Below, one piece after another: positions 4,122 through 16,081 of a DNA stretch of 16,971 nucleotides. A model generated the notes under the pieces. The model did no database searches. It had not been told where the DNA came from and saw nothing but the letters and a program-made list of their open reading frames with translations. Positions within the stretch are counted from its first letter, which is position 1. Each line of letters opens with the position of its first letter. Position numbers and translations under genes: made by a program. Origin of the DNA: a bacterium (GTDB taxonomy: Bacteria; CLD3; SB21); the NCBI GenBank assembly GCA_013360215.1, contig JABWCP010000042.1, positions 1 to 16,971 on the forward strand, given 5' to 3'.

Positions 4122-4174
4122 TATTGAAAATAGCACACTTCGGTTTTTTCACGTTTCAAGTAAAGCGCTTGCCC

Positions 4175-6133
4175 ATGTCGGATTATTTCCGCCGTATAGT
4201 TTTGTGTCTGGGTGTATCTTTGATAGGTGTATTGCCGCTTCGCGCGCAAGGCACGCTCTATCGTGGCACGCAGAGTCTTTTTATGGAAACCGGTGTTGGC
4301 GCACGCGCACAGGCTTTGGGTCGTGCGTTTACGGGGCTCGCCAATGACGGTTCGGCCGTTTTTTGGAATCCCGCCGGGTTAGATTTTTTGCAACAGCCTA
4401 ATTTTGTAGCCTATCATTCCACCCTTGTCGAAGGTACTTTTTTCAATTTTGCCGCCGTAACATATCCTTTTTTAGAATTTGGCTCCGTCGGAGTCGGTAT
4501 GGCACGTATCGGGGTCAATGGCATCCCACTCAATAACGAGTGGACTAATCTAGCTCAAGGCGAATACTCAGAACAAGAATACTATATCGCGTATGGCAAA
4601 CGCCTACCATTTTGGAATTTATCACTAGGTACAACTTTTAAAATGGTCAATGTCAATGCCAGCGAACTGAATGCCAATGATGCGCCGGTTTCGAAATCCG
4701 GATTTTCAAGCGGTCTGGATATCGCACTGATGTGGAAACCTGATTTTGAAAATGCAATAGTACGCAATATGTCTTTCGGTTTTAATTATCAAAATGTAGT
4801 CGCTCCCTCCTTCAAACTTTCCACATTTTCGTACAACGATCCCCGCAATCTGCGTTTTGGTATAGCCAAAGAAATTTATTTTGGCGGTGACCAACTCAAA
4901 CGACTAACTATCCTTGCGGATGTGAGCAAAGGTTCACGTTCCGGAATAGAATATATGGCGGGGATGGAATATTCGTTTAATCGTTTTCTGATAGCTCGCG
5001 GCGGTTTTGACGCCGGACGCATGACCGTGGGTATGGGCACAGAATTTACGCAGTTTCAACGCTTTCAAGTGGATTATTCTGTCAATCTCGGGAGTCAATA
5101 CGGGACAGCGCTGCATCGCCTCTCGCTTACGATGAATTTTGGTAAAACCATCGAAGAGCGCCAAAATATTGCCCGCGCGCTTCGCGCCGATCAGGATCAA
5201 AAAATGATCGCACAAAATCAGGAAGCAGTCAAAATCCGTGCGATCAAAGAACACTCGACGCTCGGCACCGAATATCTGAAAGACGGCAAACTTATCCCCG
5301 CACTAGTTGAGCTGGAACAAGTAGTCTCCTTGGATCCCAATAATGCGAACGCAAAATCTTTATTAGATACGGTGCGTTTCAGGATGGATAAACAATTGTC
5401 GGATCGCTTAGCCGATACGGCGACCAGTGTCCGCGAAATGACTGTTTCCCAACAACAAAATAAATTTGTCGAAGATCACTACCGCAAAGGATATCAATTA
5501 GTACAAAAGGGAGATTACATAGCCGCCCTGAGCGAATTTCAAACAGCGCTTGAGCGGTCTCCCAATAATCCCGATATTCAGCGTTCACTCAACGAAACAC
5601 GCGGTCTTCTTGATAAACGAATTGCCAGTATTATCGCTAAAGCCCGATCCAATGCGGCCGGTAATAATTTCTCCGAAGCGCTAAAATTACTGAGTGAAGC
5701 GCGCAGTCTTGACCCGACCAATCAACAAATACAACGTGAGATTGATACGGAACTCAAGCGGATAAGCAACCGACTTAGTTTTCTGGAAAGCACCCGTAGT
5801 GGTCTTGATGCGTATCAAAAAGGTGATTATCAAGCGGCTATGGAAGCTTTTGAAGCTGCGCTGCTCGTTGACCCGCAGAATCCGACGGTCAAGGAATACC
5901 ACAAAAAATCCATTGTCAGGGCTTTCGCTACATTCAAAAATCTTGAAGGCGATGTAGAAAAAACATACCTGCAGGGTGTGGATTTGTATGTCGAAGGAAA
6001 ATACGAGCAGGCCATAGCGATTTGGCAGCGCATTTTAGAAAAAGACCCGCTCAATAAACGCGTATTAAAAGCCATCGATAAAGCCGAAGATCAAATTCGT
6101 CAACGCGATGAAGCCAAAGGACGGAAAAAATAA
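4175..6133 (+). CDS. PorV/PorQ-type outer-membrane barrel fused to five TPR repeats
   Basis: 652 residues from ATG 4175. An in-frame ATG at 4052 would add 41 hydrophobic residues before the signal peptide, so the later start is preferred: it begins with MSDYFRR, a hydrophobic core, and LRAQ-G as likely cleavage point near residue 25. Residues about 35-325 are a PorV/PorQ-like beta barrel; the signature is GVGARAQALGRAFTGLANDG followed by FWNPAGL. PorV is a type IX secretion outer-membrane component in Bacteroidota, but in other FCB phyla such barrels are common without that system. After a short coil, five tetratricopeptide repeats follow (about 359-393, 435-469, 488-524, 539-574, 596-631), each ending with a DPxN or SPNN-type turn, giving a periplasmic protein-binding tail. 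No Shine-Dalgarno site is clear. It ends six bases before the sensor gene, so the two probably form an operon. Confidence 0.85.
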   Translation: MSDYFRRIVLCLGVSLIGVLPLRAQGTLYRGTQSLFMETGVGARAQALGRAFTGLANDGSAVFWNPAGLDFLQQPNFVAYHSTLVEGTFFNFAAVTYPFLEFGSVGVGMARIGVNGIPLNNEWTNLAQGEYSEQEYYIAYGKRLPFWNLSLGTTFKMVNVNASELNANDAPVSKSGFSSGLDIALMWKPDFENAIVRNMSFGFNYQNVVAPSFKLSTFSYNDPRNLRFGIAKEIYFGGDQLKRLTILADVSKGSRSGIEYMAGMEYSFNRFLIARGGFDAGRMTVGMGTEFTQFQRFQVDYSVNLGSQYGTALHRLSLTMNFGKTIEERQNIARALRADQDQKMIAQNQEAVKIRAIKEHSTLGTEYLKDGKLIPALVELEQVVSLDPNNANAKSLLDTVRFRMDKQLSDRLADTATSVREMTVSQQQNKFVEDHYRKGYQLVQKGDYIAALSEFQTALERSPNNPDIQRSLNETRGLLDKRIASIIAKARSNAAGNNFSEALKLLSEARSLDPTNQQIQREIDTELKRISNRLSFLESTRSGLDAYQKGDYQAAMEAFEAALLVDPQNPTVKEYHKKSIVRAFATFKNLEGDVEKTYLQGVDLYVEGKYEQAIAIWQRILEKDPLNKRVLKAIDKAEDQIRQRDEAKGRKK

Positions 6134-6139
6134 ATTCCT

Positions 6140-8725
6140 ATGCTTTTTAAAGCTTCACTAAAAGAAGAACTCAAGCGCCCGGCTGATATGAAATATCTGG
6201 TCGAACTGCGCGACTTCGTCGTCGGCATCGGGCGGAAGTACGGCTTTGATGAAAAAGTCATAGGCACATTGCGCCTCGCAACGGATGAAGCCGTTACGAA
6301 TATCATTCGACATGCGTATCGTGATACCCCGGGCCGCGGCGTAGTCACTCTTCGGGCGATTGTAAAAACATCCAGCCTTACCATTATCATTATCGATCAG
6401 GGCAAAACATTCGACCCTCGAAACGCCAAAGCGCCTGATATGGCTGAGTATATCAAAATCGGCAAAAAGGGCGGTCTTGGTATTTTCATGCTCAAAAAGA
6501 TGATGGATGAGATTGATTACCAGGTCACTTCCGAAGGTAACGAACTTCGCCTTGTCAAATATCGTACGCAAGGTAAACGCGGCAGCCGAGCCAAGTGGCT
6601 CCGTGATGTGAATTTACGTAACCGCTATGCTATTATATCATCCGCCGCTCTCACGCTTCTCGTATTGATCGGATATGTGTTATACGAAAAAATACAGACG
6701 AAGAACATGGAGAACGAAATCCTCAAACGTATCACGGCGATTTCAGCAACCATGGCTTCGACAAGCGCGGATCTCATGGCCAGTTACGACGACCTTTCCA
6801 TGTTTCAGATTGCGCAGCGTTTGAAAAAAGACAACGAACAGATGATCGTGGACATTTTTGTAGTTGACCGCAACAACTATATTTTTGCTGCTTCCAATCG
6901 CAATAGCCTCGGTAAATATCCAATGCCTGAAAATTATGAAACACTATCTTTCGACGGTTCGGATTCTCCTCAACTTCCCGATAGTGTTGCGCAACAATTT
7001 GAAAACCCTGAGCTACTTACATTAGTAAAAACTTATAAATATACCCAGGAAGACTTGCCCACGTTCGATATTGCAACACCGGTTTACCGTTCCAATATCA
7101 TTTCACAAGACAATTTGCTCGGCTATGCCCACGTGTTGGTGCGCGAACAAACTATTCTCAATGAAATGACCAATTTGCGCATTTTAGGGATTGTCCTGGC
7201 ATTACTTGTACTCCTTGTCGGCTATACCGGTATCGCTATTCTTCTCGCTCGCATTATCAGTCCCTTCCAAAAACTAAGTGACTGGATTCGCAGTGCCGGC
7301 CATGAATCCGTTTCGGATGACGTTGACATTGATACGACCAATGAAGTCGGTGAAATCGCGCAGGCTTTTTCCGACATGGCATCCAAATTTCGCAAAGCTC
7401 AGATCGGCCTCGTACAGCAGAAGCAGCTTCAAAAAGAAATACAGGTTGCTCAAGAAATCCAGCACATGTTGTTACCGGTATCATTTCCTGAAGTTCAGGG
7501 TTATGACCTTTCTACTTATTACGAATCGGCTAAAGAGGTCGGCGGTGATCTTTTTGACTTTATAAAAGTAGATGATGATACGATCGGTATCGTAGTTGCC
7601 GACGTATCCGGTAAAGGTGTTCCGGGTTCGCTCGTTATGACGATGATTCGTACTGCATTGCGGCTCGAAGCCCGCGGGAACAAAAACCCCGCTGATGTAC
7701 TGGCTCGCGTCAATGAGTTTGTCGTGGATGATATGAAAAAGGGCATGTTCGTCACGATGTTTTATATCGTTCTTGATTCACGTAACCGTGAAATTCACTA
7801 TGCCAGTGCCGGTCATAATCCCATGATTCTTCACAGGGTTTCGACCAAACAAACATACTACCTCAATCCGCGCGGTTTTCCGGTGGGCATCTCGCTTCCC
7901 GATCGAAAGCTTTTTGGTCAATCTATCCAGACGGACAGTATTAAGTTACAAGAGGATGATATTCTCATTGCTTATACAGACGGTATTACGGAAGCAATGA
8001 ACCACGAGCGGGATTTGTACAGCGAAGAACGTTTTCTTGAGACGATCCGCCGACATGCACATTTGGATGCCAAAGCTTTTGTCGAAAATATGCGGAACGA
8101 TCTTAATGAGTTTACGCAAGGGGCTCCACAAAGCGACGATATTACGCTCGTTGCAATCAAAGAAAATTTAGCCGCCGGTGATGTGCTTTTCAACTTGCGT
8201 AAACAATTGATTGACATGGTAGCTGAAGGTATGAGTGTGAAAGAAGCCTGCGCAAAGACACGTATATCTACTTCAACTTATTATAAGTATAAGAAAAAAT
8301 ATGATGAACTCGGTGAAGCGGGACTCCGAAATAAATCGGAGGGCTCGAATATCGAGGCTAAACATTTTAGTATCGAACAGCGCGCTAAAATTTTTGATGT
8401 CATACGTAAACACCCTGAATTTGGCCCTAAAATGATCAGCAACACACTCAATTCAGAGGAATATAGTTTTACAACAATACCCGAAAAACGCATCTACGAT
8501 GAATTAGTTCGCCTGCGTCTCAACACGGAAGAAAAACGTCAGGCTTTTGTCAGTCAAAAAGCAAAAACGAAGCGTTTCAAAATGCCCGGCACACCACTTC
8601 TTACCATGGAGGGTGAAGTCATCAAGAATGACGGATCTAACGCGAACTCCATCGTTGATCGGATCATGCAACAGCGGCAACAAGCCATTGAGTCTGAGAA
8701 GAAAACGGAACCGGCTGAAGCGTAA
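6140..8725 (+). CDS. Membrane-bound RsbW-like kinase / Cache-like sensor / HAMP / PP2C phosphatase with C-terminal transposase-type HTH pair
   Basis: 861 residues in one uninterrupted frame. (1) 1-142: RsbW-like ATPase with N-box DEAVTNIIRHAY (49-60; E50, N54), G1 DQGKTFDP (86-93) and G2 GGLGIFMLKKMMD (111-123). (2) Transmembrane helix about 163-182. (3) About 183-346: extracytoplasmic Cache-like sensor (DIFVVDRNNYIFAASN at 238-253). (4) Transmembrane helix about 347-371, then HAMP about 372-423. (5) PP2C core 435-673 with GGDLFD (468-473), DVSGKGVPG (488-496), AGHNP (557-561), DGITEA (614-619) and DDIT (666-669). (6) HTH of IS481/IS630 type at about 684-732 (EGMSVKEACAKTRISTSTYY) and a second winged HTH at about 743-796 (HPEFGPKMISNTL). 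(7) A charged tail. Both enzymatic cores look intact. No DDE nuclease follows the HTH. Roles: reversible phosphorylation of a STAS-type partner, sensed from outside, plus DNA binding; the last is inference. No clear Shine-Dalgarno site precedes the start. Confidence 0.9.
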   Translation: MLFKASLKEELKRPADMKYLVELRDFVVGIGRKYGFDEKVIGTLRLATDEAVTNIIRHAYRDTPGRGVVTLRAIVKTSSLTIIIIDQGKTFDPRNAKAPDMAEYIKIGKKGGLGIFMLKKMMDEIDYQVTSEGNELRLVKYRTQGKRGSRAKWLRDVNLRNRYAIISSAALTLLVLIGYVLYEKIQTKNMENEILKRITAISATMASTSADLMASYDDLSMFQIAQRLKKDNEQMIVDIFVVDRNNYIFAASNRNSLGKYPMPENYETLSFDGSDSPQLPDSVAQQFENPELLTLVKTYKYTQEDLPTFDIATPVYRSNIISQDNLLGYAHVLVREQTILNEMTNLRILGIVLALLVLLVGYTGIAILLARIISPFQKLSDWIRSAGHESVSDDVDIDTTNEVGEIAQAFSDMASKFRKAQIGLVQQKQLQKEIQVAQEIQHMLLPVSFPEVQGYDLSTYYESAKEVGGDLFDFIKVDDDTIGIVVADVSGKGVPGSLVMTMIRTALRLEARGNKNPADVLARVNEFVVDDMKKGMFVTMFYIVLDSRNREIHYASAGHNPMILHRVSTKQTYYLNPRGFPVGISLPDRKLFGQSIQTDSIKLQEDDILIAYTDGITEAMNHERDLYSEERFLETIRRHAHLDAKAFVENMRNDLNEFTQGAPQSDDITLVAIKENLAAGDVLFNLRKQLIDMVAEGMSVKEACAKTRISTSTYYKYKKKYDELGEAGLRNKSEGSNIEAKHFSIEQRAKIFDVIRKHPEFGPKMISNTLNSEEYSFTTIPEKRIYDELVRLRLNTEEKRQAFVSQKAKTKRFKMPGTPLLTMEGEVIKNDGSNANSIVDRIMQQRQQAIESEKKTEPAEA
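8186..8554 (+). other. Transposase-type double helix-turn-helix module inside the sensor gene
   Basis: This part of the 6140-8725 gene encodes residues about 683-805. The first unit reads like the N-terminal HTH of IS481/IS630 transposases: a helix with EGMSVKEAC, a recognition helix TSTYYKYKKKY, then the characteristic GEAGLRNKS. The second resembles the winged helix that follows it in those enzymes: FSIEQRAKI, HPEFGPKMIS, then a final helix KRIYDELVRLRL. The catalytic DDE domain that should come next is absent; only about 56 charged residues remain. The frame is continuous with the phosphatase, and no internal start with a Shine-Dalgarno site is visible near 8183 (GTG) or 8216 (ATG). Confidence 0.75.
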
Positions 8726-13070: not shown

Positions 13071-14660
13071 CTAATTGATACGCACAGTAACAGAGCGCCC
13101 TAACGATTCTTCAAACAATCCTTTTTTCATATTAACTGCCCATTGTTCCAGTGTTCCCGACGATTTACAGTGCGCTTTGATCAAAATATGTTTAGGTTGA
13201 ATTTTGCACCTTAGCGACGTGATGCTTTGACTGTGCGTCCTATCCAATCCGTCAGCAATACGCAATATACCCGCCAATTTGCATACTAAACGCTGATTCT
13301 CGATTGAAAGATTAACAAAACCGTCATGCTTGGGTTTGGGATGGCTCTTGCGATGGTACCTCGCTATATTGGCTATAACTTCTTTTTCCTGATCGGTAAA
13401 TCCCGCTAACTCCGCATTTCGAATAAGATAATACGAATGGCGATGATGCTGTGCGTGTGAGACAAAAAACCCGACCTCGTGCATGATCGCCGCAAATTCA
13501 AGGAATTCCCGTTCCGTGCTACCCAGTTTGTGTATTTTAACAGTCTGATCAAAAATACTAAGTGCCAATCGGGTTACCTGATGTGCATGTTCCGCATCGT
13601 AGTGAAAATTTTCAGCCAGATGTATGACACTACGATAGCGAATGTTTGATAAGGGGTGATGCCCACCCGTATTCGTGCGGCTGTTTATGTAATCATGGAT
13701 AATACCCTCTCTCAGCGCGTATTCGGAAACGACCATTTGTTTGATCTTAAGTAAATCAAATGATTCCTGTAAAACCAAAGCACCGGCCACAATAATGTCT
13801 GCTCTTTTAATATCTAGCCCGATGATTTTTATTCGCTGCGCTACCGTTTTTGCTTTTAAGATATTCTGAACTACACGATCCAGTTCTTTTTTGGTAAAAG
13901 AAAAATTATTCAGCTGGGCATCCGATGAAATCCCGCTTCTATTAGCTCTAATCATATTGGCTAAATTGAGAATTGTACCCGAACTGCCAACTGCAAACTC
14001 GATTTTGCGATCGCGTACTTCCCGTGCTACGGCGCTTACAAATCCGCGAATATATTCTCGGCATTCCTGTATTTTTTTAGGCTTGATAACACCTTTATCG
14101 AAAAACCGCTGTGTTAAACGAATACATCCGATCTTAAGACTGTTCAGATATTGCGCTTCCCCTCGGACTCCAACGATATATTCGACACTGCCGCCACCGA
14201 TGTCCATTGCAATAATTTTGTGGTTAAAAACCGGTAATGCCTGCAGCACCCCTAGATAAATCAACCGTGCCTCTTCATTGCCGGAAACAACTTCAATATT
14301 TATGCCGGTTGCATCTTTTATTTTTTTTACAAAATGCGCCTGATTGAGCGCTTCGCGTACGGCACTGGTTGCTACAGCACGTATTGGTGCTTTGTATACT
14401 TTAGCAATTTCAGAAAAACGCTTTAATGCCGTAACGCCCCTTTCTATCGCATCCGGGGCAATCATTTTCATGTCGGAGCTGCCACTGCCCAAACGTACAT
14501 TTTCTTTTTCCCTGTCAACGATACGATACTTCCCGTTACCCAATAGCTCAACAACTATGAGATGAAATGAATTAGTACCAATATCAATCGCAGCAATATG
14601 CTTTTTGGAATTCCGCTCAGTGAATATCATTTTTTTAAGTTGCGAAACGACACGTGCCAT
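13071..14660 (-). CDS. Ppx/GppA-family phosphatase with C-terminal HD domain
   Basis: 529 residues, close to E. coli Ppx in length. Residues about 20-325 are the actin-like Ppx/GppA fold: phosphate-1 loop AAIDIGTNSFHL (23-34), SGNEEARLIYLG (126-137), phosphate-2 loop DIGGGSVE (153-160), VGSSGT (224-229) and DIIVAGA (288-294). Residues about 345-485 are the HD-like domain with HAH (358-360), MHEVG (393-397), HAQHHRHS (402-409) and ADGLDRTH (469-476). These enzymes remove terminal phosphate from polyphosphate and/or convert pppGpp to ppGpp; sequence alone does not separate the two. Its ATG overlaps the TGA of the SixA gene by one base (TGATG), and GGAGAG (14666-14671) lies five bases upstream. 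Translation coupling with the SixA gene is therefore likely. An alternative start at residue 11 (14630) is less supported. Confidence 0.93.
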   Translation of the reverse strand: MARVVSQLKKMIFTERNSKKHIAAIDIGTNSFHLIVVELLGNGKYRIVDREKENVRLGSGSSDMKMIAPDAIERGVTALKRFSEIAKVYKAPIRAVATSAVREALNQAHFVKKIKDATGINIEVVSGNEEARLIYLGVLQALPVFNHKIIAMDIGGGSVEYIVGVRGEAQYLNSLKIGCIRLTQRFFDKGVIKPKKIQECREYIRGFVSAVAREVRDRKIEFAVGSSGTILNLANMIRANRSGISSDAQLNNFSFTKKELDRVVQNILKAKTVAQRIKIIGLDIKRADIIVAGALVLQESFDLLKIKQMVVSEYALREGIIHDYINSRTNTGGHHPLSNIRYRSVIHLAENFHYDAEHAHQVTRLALSIFDQTVKIHKLGSTEREFLEFAAIMHEVGFFVSHAQHHRHSYYLIRNAELAGFTDQEKEVIANIARYHRKSHPKPKHDGFVNLSIENQRLVCKLAGILRIADGLDRTHSQSITSLRCKIQPKHILIKAHCKSSGTLEQWAVNMKKGLFEESLGRSVTVRIN

Positions 14661-15157
14661 CAGGACTCTCCGATAAACTTGAGTTGACGCGGTGTCATAA
14701 ACCAGCGTATTTCACCGCTCGGCGATGGATGGATACGTTCCACCTCGATTTTACAGATTGCACCTTTCTTAAAAGGAATAGCTAACCTCGGTACTCCCAT
14801 AAAAAAACCGGCTAATCTTCCGACATCCGGCATGTGGCCCACAAGTAAAACGCTGTAATCCATTTGAAACGGTTTGAATGCCTGCATAAGCTCGGCTGTT
14901 GACGCGGGTATTGCCAAACCATCACATACGACTACCTTTTTGTGCCCCAATACTTCGGCAACAGCCTCTGCCGTTTGTTTGGCACGTACCAAAGGACTGC
15001 TCATAATAACATTAAAACGTATATCTAGTCTTTTGAGGCCGCGTGCTTCTGCTTGCACCAATTTGACACCCTCACCGGTCAATGGTCGGTCAAAATCGGT
15101 TTTAATCTTCCCGCCTACATCTTCAGCAAAACCGTGTCTCATTAAAAATACATCCAT
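14660..15157 (-). CDS. sixA: SixA-type phosphohistidine phosphatase
   Basis: 165 residues, the usual size of SixA, a small histidine-phosphatase-superfamily enzyme. The catalytic RHG (7-9) with His8 opens the protein; LTGEG (26-30), SSPLVRAKQTAE (53-64, Arg58) and the second catalytic histidine in VGHMPD (H108) follow. In E. coli, SixA removes phosphate from histidine in phosphotransfer proteins (ArcB HPt, the nitrogen PTS). GGAG (15164-15167) sits six bases before the ATG, inside the end of the CHAD gene, whose stop is only three bases upstream. It therefore lies in a tight run between the CHAD and Ppx/GppA genes; the target in this organism is unknown. Confidence 0.92.
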   Translation of the reverse strand: MDVFLMRHGFAEDVGGKIKTDFDRPLTGEGVKLVQAEARGLKRLDIRFNVIMSSPLVRAKQTAEAVAEVLGHKKVVVCDGLAIPASTAELMQAFKPFQMDYSVLLVGHMPDVGRLAGFFMGVPRLAIPFKKGAICKIEVERIHPSPSGEIRWFMTPRQLKFIGES

Positions 15158-15160
15158 AAC

Positions 15161-16081
15161 TTACTCCATGACAAAGTGTTTAATTTGTTTTTGCAGAACA
15201 CGGCGCATATTACTATTCCAATACGAATAAAACCGATGGGTAATCGAAATACGTTCCCGTACTACATAGTGTATCGTTTTGATTATCGTTACGTTGTGTA
15301 TTTCATTTTCTGTCTTATAAATTTGCGCGGACTTTCTAAGTGTCTTTATTATCGTATCGCAATCGTGAATTAGTCCGAGATAATCTTGTAGTTTTTTTAA
15401 AATTTTTATCGTCTGAGATATGTTGCCGCCCAGTATTCCGCTCCACATTTCGACCGAATAACGTAACCTTTTGGTTTCAATTCGAAAAACATGGAGCGCT
15501 CTGGATGACAGTGGATCGCCACAATCAGATTCAGCAATCCACAACGCTTCACTTCTTTCTTTTATCCACTGAACCGCTAAGTCCACAGCGGTTACTCCTA
15601 TGGGATCGTTTTTAGTTTCGCTTTCTGAAAAAACCCATGATATGTCTATATCTAAATCCGTTTTCTGTATTGTATTTTGAAATTGCTGTAATGATCTCAA
15701 ACGTTTGGTTTCAATTTGATTCTCTATATAATCCCAATTCGCAGATTGTATTTTGGAGTGCTTGGATTTAAGAATCTGAATCTTATGCAACATAATATCA
15801 CTATCGCGCACTTCCCCGGCGTGATCAGCTAATGTTTTGATCGCATGATTGTGATGTTTCAGTTTCGCAGTCGAAGAAGAGTAAAATACAAGGCAGGCCA
15901 TCGCTTGACGTAATCGTCGCGAGGCTACTCTAAAGTCATGTATCTGCTCTGCACTCTGATTTTCTTTGACAGCATCGTATAAAGATTTCCATGAAATCCA
16001 GCGATGACGCATGATTCGCTGCATCGCTTCAGATGCGCCCATTGTCGGAAGCAAATCCGGGATATACCACGAAGCTTCCAT
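15161..16081 (-). CDS. CHAD domain-containing protein
   Basis: 306 residues made almost entirely of a CHAD (conserved histidine alpha-helical) domain. Two helical halves are seen: IHDFRVASRRLRQAM (47-61) with GEVRDSDIML (89-98), and HVFRIETKRLRYSVEMW (197-213) with LQDYLGLIHDCDT (231-243). Basic residues line the helices, as expected for a domain that binds polyphosphate and localises to polyphosphate granules in studied cases. No CYTH/triphosphatase domain is attached, so it is more likely a binding or scaffold protein than an enzyme. The gene begins 20 bases after the phosphoglycerate mutase stop, with no clear Shine-Dalgarno site. The neighbours SixA and Ppx/GppA support a role in polyphosphate handling. 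Confidence 0.88.
   Translation of the reverse strand: MEASWYIPDLLPTMGASEAMQRIMRHRWISWKSLYDAVKENQSAEQIHDFRVASRRLRQAMACLVFYSSSTAKLKHHNHAIKTLADHAGEVRDSDIMLHKIQILKSKHSKIQSANWDYIENQIETKRLRSLQQFQNTIQKTDLDIDISWVFSESETKNDPIGVTAVDLAVQWIKERSEALWIAESDCGDPLSSRALHVFRIETKRLRYSVEMWSGILGGNISQTIKILKKLQDYLGLIHDCDTIIKTLRKSAQIYKTENEIHNVTIIKTIHYVVRERISITHRFYSYWNSNMRRVLQKQIKHFVME

Follow-up and report, generated by a model that had tools for sequence, protein, structure and literature searches.

How would one bacterial protein use a serine kinase, an external sensor, a phosphatase and a pair of DNA-binding domains, and on what partner would it act? This question is raised by a gene in the stretch of DNA analyzed here (the window, 16,971 nucleotides of contig JABWCP010000042.1). 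The gene runs on the plus strand from 6140 to 8725 and encodes, from ATG to stop in one uninterrupted frame, an 861-residue protein that we call the switch. The answer toward which we lean, by a little, is that the switch serves as sensor and enzyme at the membrane in a partner-switching system of two proteins, with DNA binding as its output.

Domain architecture

The original prediction had described a continuous gene for an RsbW-like kinase with intact N, G1 and G2 boxes, two transmembrane helices around a Cache-like sensor, HAMP, a PP2C core with its acidic motifs and a C-terminal pair of helix-turn-helix (HTH) domains. This description was borne out, and its coordinates were correct to within a few residues. 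The N-terminal RsbW/SpoIIAB-type GHKL serine kinase domain (residues 12–142, 6173..6565; like all features of the switch, on the plus strand) was detected by Pfam (HATPase_c_2 at residues 14–140, E 2e-27), by the NCBIfam RsbW model (E 3e-22) and by a PDB sequence match to the RsbW structure 6m36 (E 1e-12). The residues of its conserved boxes, E50 and N54 (N box), D86-x-G88 (G1) and G111-G112-x-G114 (G2), are unchanged in every one of the 35 tailed relatives.

Two hydrophobic helices with basic cytoplasmic flanks, the first with a basic N-side (residues 164–182, 6629..6685) and the second at residues 351–369 (7190..7246), enclose a periplasmic Cache-like sensor (residues 186–345, 6695..7174). 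The sensor is fast-evolving and its Pfam Cache match in the window protein is weak (E 1e-3); in relatives, sCache_3_2 is clear at loci L080 and L082 and weak at L079. The HAMP domain (residues 371–423, 7250..7408) was matched by Pfam at 369–416 with an E value of 9e-5, marginally below the curated cut-off. The PP2C/SpoIIE phosphatase that follows (residues 446–675, 7475..8164; Pfam SpoIIE at 478–674, E 4e-52) has every metal ligand, and D470, D488, D614, D666 and D667 are identical in all 35 tailed relatives.

The gene is intact and recurs across lineages

Six other assemblies of the window's family carry the switch at full length, without stops, with the tail and in the full domain order, at 73–76% identity. 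The complete switch is kept in all seven genomes of the family and in about 40 further loci. A scan of genome contigs also found distant full-length relatives (35–51% identity) on contigs labeled Calditrichaceae (Calditrichota), Zixibacteria, Krumholzibacteriota, FCPU426, Firestonebacteria, Goldbacteria and others, and the architecture is present in no fewer than seven lineages of bacteria. Plasmid relatives gave partial matches alone, none of which spanned 80% of the protein.

The tail resembles the N-termini of IS481/IS3 transposases, as it would if the gene were a remnant or an artefact, made by an assembly join or by accidental fusion to part of a transposase. We give this explanation practically no credence and regard it as already refuted. 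The same stop-free frame in six other family assemblies and in other phyla rules out an assembly join, and the seven family genomes exclude a frameshift as well. The same junction is found in those seven genomes and in many other lineages under purifying selection, and the catalytic transposase domain was seen in no scanned relative. A recent transposase insertion is likewise ruled out by the purifying selection together with the lineage spread.

The C-terminal tail resembles a transposase-type DNA-binding module

HTH1 lies at about residues 684–735 (8189..8344). It is followed by HTH2, which is of the winged-helix type (about residues 742–805, 8363..8554), and by a linker tail (8555..8722) whose PGTPLLTMEGEVI motif also occurs in Calditrichaceae-type relatives. 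The window's family and these relatives (L067, L068-L073) have PGTPxLTLDGKVI in common behind HTH2. At L070 and L072 the switch ends in TPR repeats.

HTH_28, HTH_29 and HTH_23 matched residues 687–748 above the Pfam cut-off (E 6e-10 to 3e-8). HTH_32 (713–785, E 2e-5) fell below it, and the NCBIfam model for the IS481 transposase N-terminus (687–815, E 7e-15) fell below its curated cut-off. No DDE/rve catalytic domain was found in the window protein or in six scanned relatives, and no paralogous HTH was found elsewhere in the window's genome. The predicted recognition helix of HTH1 (residues 710–720, STSTYYKYKKK) is nearly invariant between lineages: among 35 tailed relatives S710 and Y715 never vary, Lys or Arg alone occupies positions 716 and 718, and S712, T713, Y714 and Y717 are kept in 31–32. 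In close pairs both HTH domains had dN/dS values of 0.00–0.06, much as elsewhere in the switch. The near-invariant helix and the low dN/dS values indicate selection on the tail.

An AlphaFold (AF2) model of the tail, built with 33 relatives, had a mean pLDDT of 85 and contained two helical HTH units, in agreement with the HTH pair first proposed. Its best structural matches were PAX5 (Z 7.4), TnsB (7.3), Tc3 (6.0), IstA (6.0) and Mos1 (5.9). The top-ranked folds (Foldseek, VIA-align), which also include the PAX6 paired domain and Mu, are bipartite DNA-binding domains, mostly solved on DNA. The Z scores are moderate (about 6 to 7.4) and the rmsd values large, presumably because the two HTH units sit at different angles; a structural Z below 8 is no proof of kinship, and the weight rests on agreement with the sequence matches. 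By sequence, the tail matched the solved structures of Lin0861 (E 0.005) and TnsB (E 0.07) weakly. The tail models as a bipartite DNA-binding module of the transposase/paired type (TnsB, Tc3, Mos1, PAX). Like the tail, transposases (IS481, TnsB, IstA, Tc3/Mos1) and the PAX paired domain have a tandem HTH pair, with matches over model residues 1–140; unlike them, the switch is without a DDE/rve domain and has its HTH pair fused to a signaling enzyme.

A STAS partner carries a homologous winged helix

It had also been proposed that the tail replaces the STAS domain of related systems. This proved incorrect: STAS is a separate gene, and it lies directly after the switch in most lineages other than the window's family. 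In the window's genome the partner is a STAS-winged-helix protein unlinked to the switch (G000:C6:24595-25260, 24.6 kb), with an orthologue in six of the seven switch-bearing genomes of the family; two class members that are without the switch gave no full-length match to this protein. The STAS fold matched that of SpoIIAA bound to SpoIIAB with a Z score of 18.7, and Ser60-Ser61 is invariant in 27 alignment rows. By alignment with SpoIIAA Ser58, we read Ser61 as the probable phospho-acceptor. The system thus appears to include the cognate STAS protein with a phospho-acceptor serine that marks a partner switch. Upstream of the STAS-winged-helix gene, between a galT-like gene and STAS, lies AAAAGACAAATGGAAA or a near variant; the block is conserved in five of six family genomes (L040, upstream of 1459, L045, L047, L050 and L051).

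An RsbW-like kinase and a SpoIIAA-like STAS protein would also suit a conventional anti-sigma switch, in which the kinase sequesters a sigma factor, STAS frees it and the HTH tail, as an accessory, brings the complex close to RNA polymerase or to promoters. We consider this improbable; no sigma gene recurs in the switch neighborhood and the SigB/F/G model stayed below cut-off in the window genome and in G003, G017 and G053. That model reaches cut-off in just one of 14 control genomes, so another sigma factor could fill the role.

Most of the neighboring STAS proteins end in a loose linker and a small winged helix. With hhalign, a profile of this domain matched the switch's HTH2 across 70 columns at 97.6% probability. 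Among 447 neighborhood proteins, an HTH2 model retrieved STAS C-termini alone (down to 3e-11), and a model of the STAS C-terminus retrieved these STAS proteins and switch tails (the window protein at 8e-10) and, beyond them, nothing but three matches at E 0.8 to other STAS proteins. Judged by these profiles, the STAS winged helix and HTH2 are homologous, so that far from being displaced by the tail, the STAS protein of most lineages bears a relative of part of it.

Variation of the tail among lineages

Zixibacteria switches are tailless, have HTH2 only (G097, G063) or have both HTH1 and HTH2. An end near codon 675 was accordingly seen in part of this group and in no close relative of the window protein, which indicates that a genuine tail has been acquired or lost in some lineages. 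The tailless Zixibacteria switches mostly adjoin a STAS protein with a winged helix (nine loci, including G017, which is placed in Zixibacteria because L102, to which it is close, carries that label); three lack a STAS gene beside them. Krumholzibacteria switches end in three fused STAS domains that follow the HTH in the chain, and STAS proteins encoded separately there are without the winged helix. The clade of the window, Calditrichota, Krumholzibacteriota and FCPU426 types has the full tail in all relatives, and on the core tree the three tail states require five changes versus 14.4 in shuffles.

A candidate rule that at least one partner bears a DNA-binding domain in each genome, judged without G072, G066 and G079, was nearly true; it is broken by G069 and G052, in which the winged helix/HTH is missing on both the switch and the adjacent STAS protein. 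Given these two genomes and the tailless switches, the system does not strictly require DNA binding.

The main rival to an output on DNA is that the HTH2-type domains pair the switch tail with the STAS C-terminus, holding enzyme and substrate together while neither binds DNA. A domain shared by both partners is a common sign of hetero-association, and a fused STAS alongside free STAS proteins without the winged helix, as in Krumholzibacteria, is what would be expected once tethering was unneeded. This explanation leaves HTH1 unaccounted for, however, which has no STAS counterpart and whose basic recognition helix is nearly invariant. Where the switch is tailless, its STAS protein usually retains the winged helix with no partner domain for it to bind, and the structural neighbors of the tail are mostly DNA-bound. 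We therefore judge pairing to be unlikely, if well worth bearing in mind; HTH1 and the tailless switches that retain the STAS winged helix speak for DNA.

Genomic surroundings

Six bases before the switch ends a gene for a PorV-family outer-membrane protein with TPR repeats (4172..6133, plus strand; PorV_fam E 6e-28). Its orthologue lies directly upstream of the switch in 41 of 41 loci with enough upstream sequence; in the five loci without it the sequence ends within about 350 bases upstream. Outside the window's family, a gene for a giant secreted protein precedes the PorV/TPR gene in most loci, and some of these proteins have an FlgD_ig-type C-terminal domain. L068 (1674-8060), L102 (3355-8148) and similar loci of many lineages encode giant secreted proteins with CARDB and an FlgD_ig-like C-terminus. 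Possibly these proteins and PorV represent type IX-like cargo with its own PorV. In the window's family, the regions ahead of the PorV gene and the STAS gene showed no obvious common operator, and promoter-like TTGC/TAT blocks alone were found.

In Zixibacteria the loci continue with a GGDEF gene and with polysaccharide export genes, the latter named from sequence only. The cluster at L091 (12868-19886), and likewise those at L085, L090, L092 and L100, runs into GGDEF, Wza-like, Wzc-like and BY-kinase-like genes. This arrangement may link the switch to c-di-GMP and exopolysaccharide. Taken together, the surroundings suggest that the system controls products of the cell surface or outside the cell, as SypE/SypA does.

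A ParA/BcsQ-like ATPase gene comes right after the switch in 17 Zixibacteria and Krumholzibacteriota loci. Such a neighbor would fit a positioning system, for example for placing a secretion or polysaccharide machine, in which the membrane-anchored HTH, together with the ATPase, ties a chromosomal site to the membrane and the STAS cycle controls the tether; a recognition helix that hardly varies between lineages could reflect a fixed site. No ParA gene adjoins the switch in the window's family or in the Calditrichota-type and FCPU426-type loci, though, and we think positioning very unlikely.

Proposed mechanism and comparison with known systems

A membrane-tethered transcription regulator, the role first suggested for the protein, is still the likeliest one from its domains, with DNA binding predicted from sequence and model. 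For the two-protein partner switch that we favor, we infer activity on STAS, DNA binding, target genes and switch direction as follows. The periplasmic Cache-like domain would sense a signal and HAMP would pass it on, so as to tip the chain toward its N-terminal serine kinase or its PP2C phosphatase, both acting on Ser61 of the STAS partner. Unphosphorylated STAS would dock on the kinase domain, and phosphorylated STAS would leave. Since the switch has HTH1 and HTH2 and the STAS protein has a homologue of HTH2, docking and undocking would change the combination of HTH domains on a promoter and with it the expression of linked cell-surface genes: those for the PorV/TPR protein, the giant secreted protein and, in Zixibacteria, exopolysaccharide. 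A more specific version, to which we give somewhat less than an even chance, is a sigma-free partner switch in which the switch and STAS share a domesticated transposase-type module and phosphorylation of the STAS serine picks the HTH combination on DNA. If true, this would be a direct membrane-to-promoter phospho-switch spread across many FCB-type and candidate phyla.

A regulatory domain flanked by kinase and phosphatase had been taken as new, but Vibrio fischeri SypE has the order kinase-REC-PP2C in one chain (PMC10120452). SypE switches between kinase and phosphatase action on one serine of the STAS protein SypA and controls exopolysaccharide (PMC10120452). Like the switch, it combines an N-terminal RsbW-type kinase, a central regulatory domain and a C-terminal PP2C, and it is a working precedent for one chain that both phosphorylates and dephosphorylates a STAS protein. 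Unlike the switch, which has TM-Cache-TM-HAMP in place of REC, SypE is described as having a central receiver and being under RscS control, without a membrane sensor or HTH; SypA is small (105 aa) and is without the winged helix of the STAS partner described here. We know of no identified downstream target of SypA.

Rv1364c of M. tuberculosis also has a PP2C and an anti-sigma kinase in one chain, and its PP2C gave the best PDB match (3ke6, E 1e-16). Its order is PAS-phosphatase-kinase-STAS, and it is cytosolic, without TM, Cache or HAMP segments and without a DNA-binding part. The RsbU-RsbV-RsbW and SpoIIE-SpoIIAA-SpoIIAB systems share with the switch and its partner the phosphatase, the phospho-serine STAS protein and the GHKL kinase, but they consist of separate proteins with a sigma factor as output, whereas the present system has two proteins, both usually with DNA-binding-type domains. 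To our knowledge, partner switching is known almost only as such sigma-factor control by separate proteins. ToxR and CadC resemble the switch in being membrane-anchored, with a sensor in the periplasm and an HTH in the cytoplasm. They are enzyme-free and carry an N-terminal OmpR-type (OmpR/PhoB) winged helix, whereas the HTH of the switch is C-terminal, transposase-like (HTH_28/29/32 type) and behind a kinase and a phosphatase.

In the open-access literature we found no account of such an HTH fused to a SpoIIE or STAS protein, absence there being no proof, and to that extent the architecture is undescribed, as originally predicted. A review of STAS-only proteins mentions neither HTH nor DNA binding (PMC8256260). 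With the kinase-regulator-phosphatase order already known from SypE, we rate the HTH-tailed partner switch as a new variant of partner switching. The architecture and the partner suggest a hitherto undescribed link from an external signal to gene control, with sensor, kinase, phosphatase, STAS and DNA-binding module in one or two proteins, and this compact version behind a PorV-type protein suggests that STAS switches can act on DNA directly. In phyla that are mostly uncultured it would give clusters of cell-surface genes a likely regulator, and the switch and STAS form a clear testable pair. The same winged helix, found on either the STAS protein or the switch or on the two together, also illustrates well how DNA-binding parts of transposases can be recruited into signaling.

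Other genes of the window

A second, soluble GAF-SpoIIE phosphatase is encoded at 297-1556, 4.5 kb upstream of the switch. On the minus strand, Ppx/GppA-like, SixA-like phosphohistidine phosphatase and CHAD-like genes stand in a row at 13071-16081 and, to judge by their sequences alone, may form a polyphosphate cluster.
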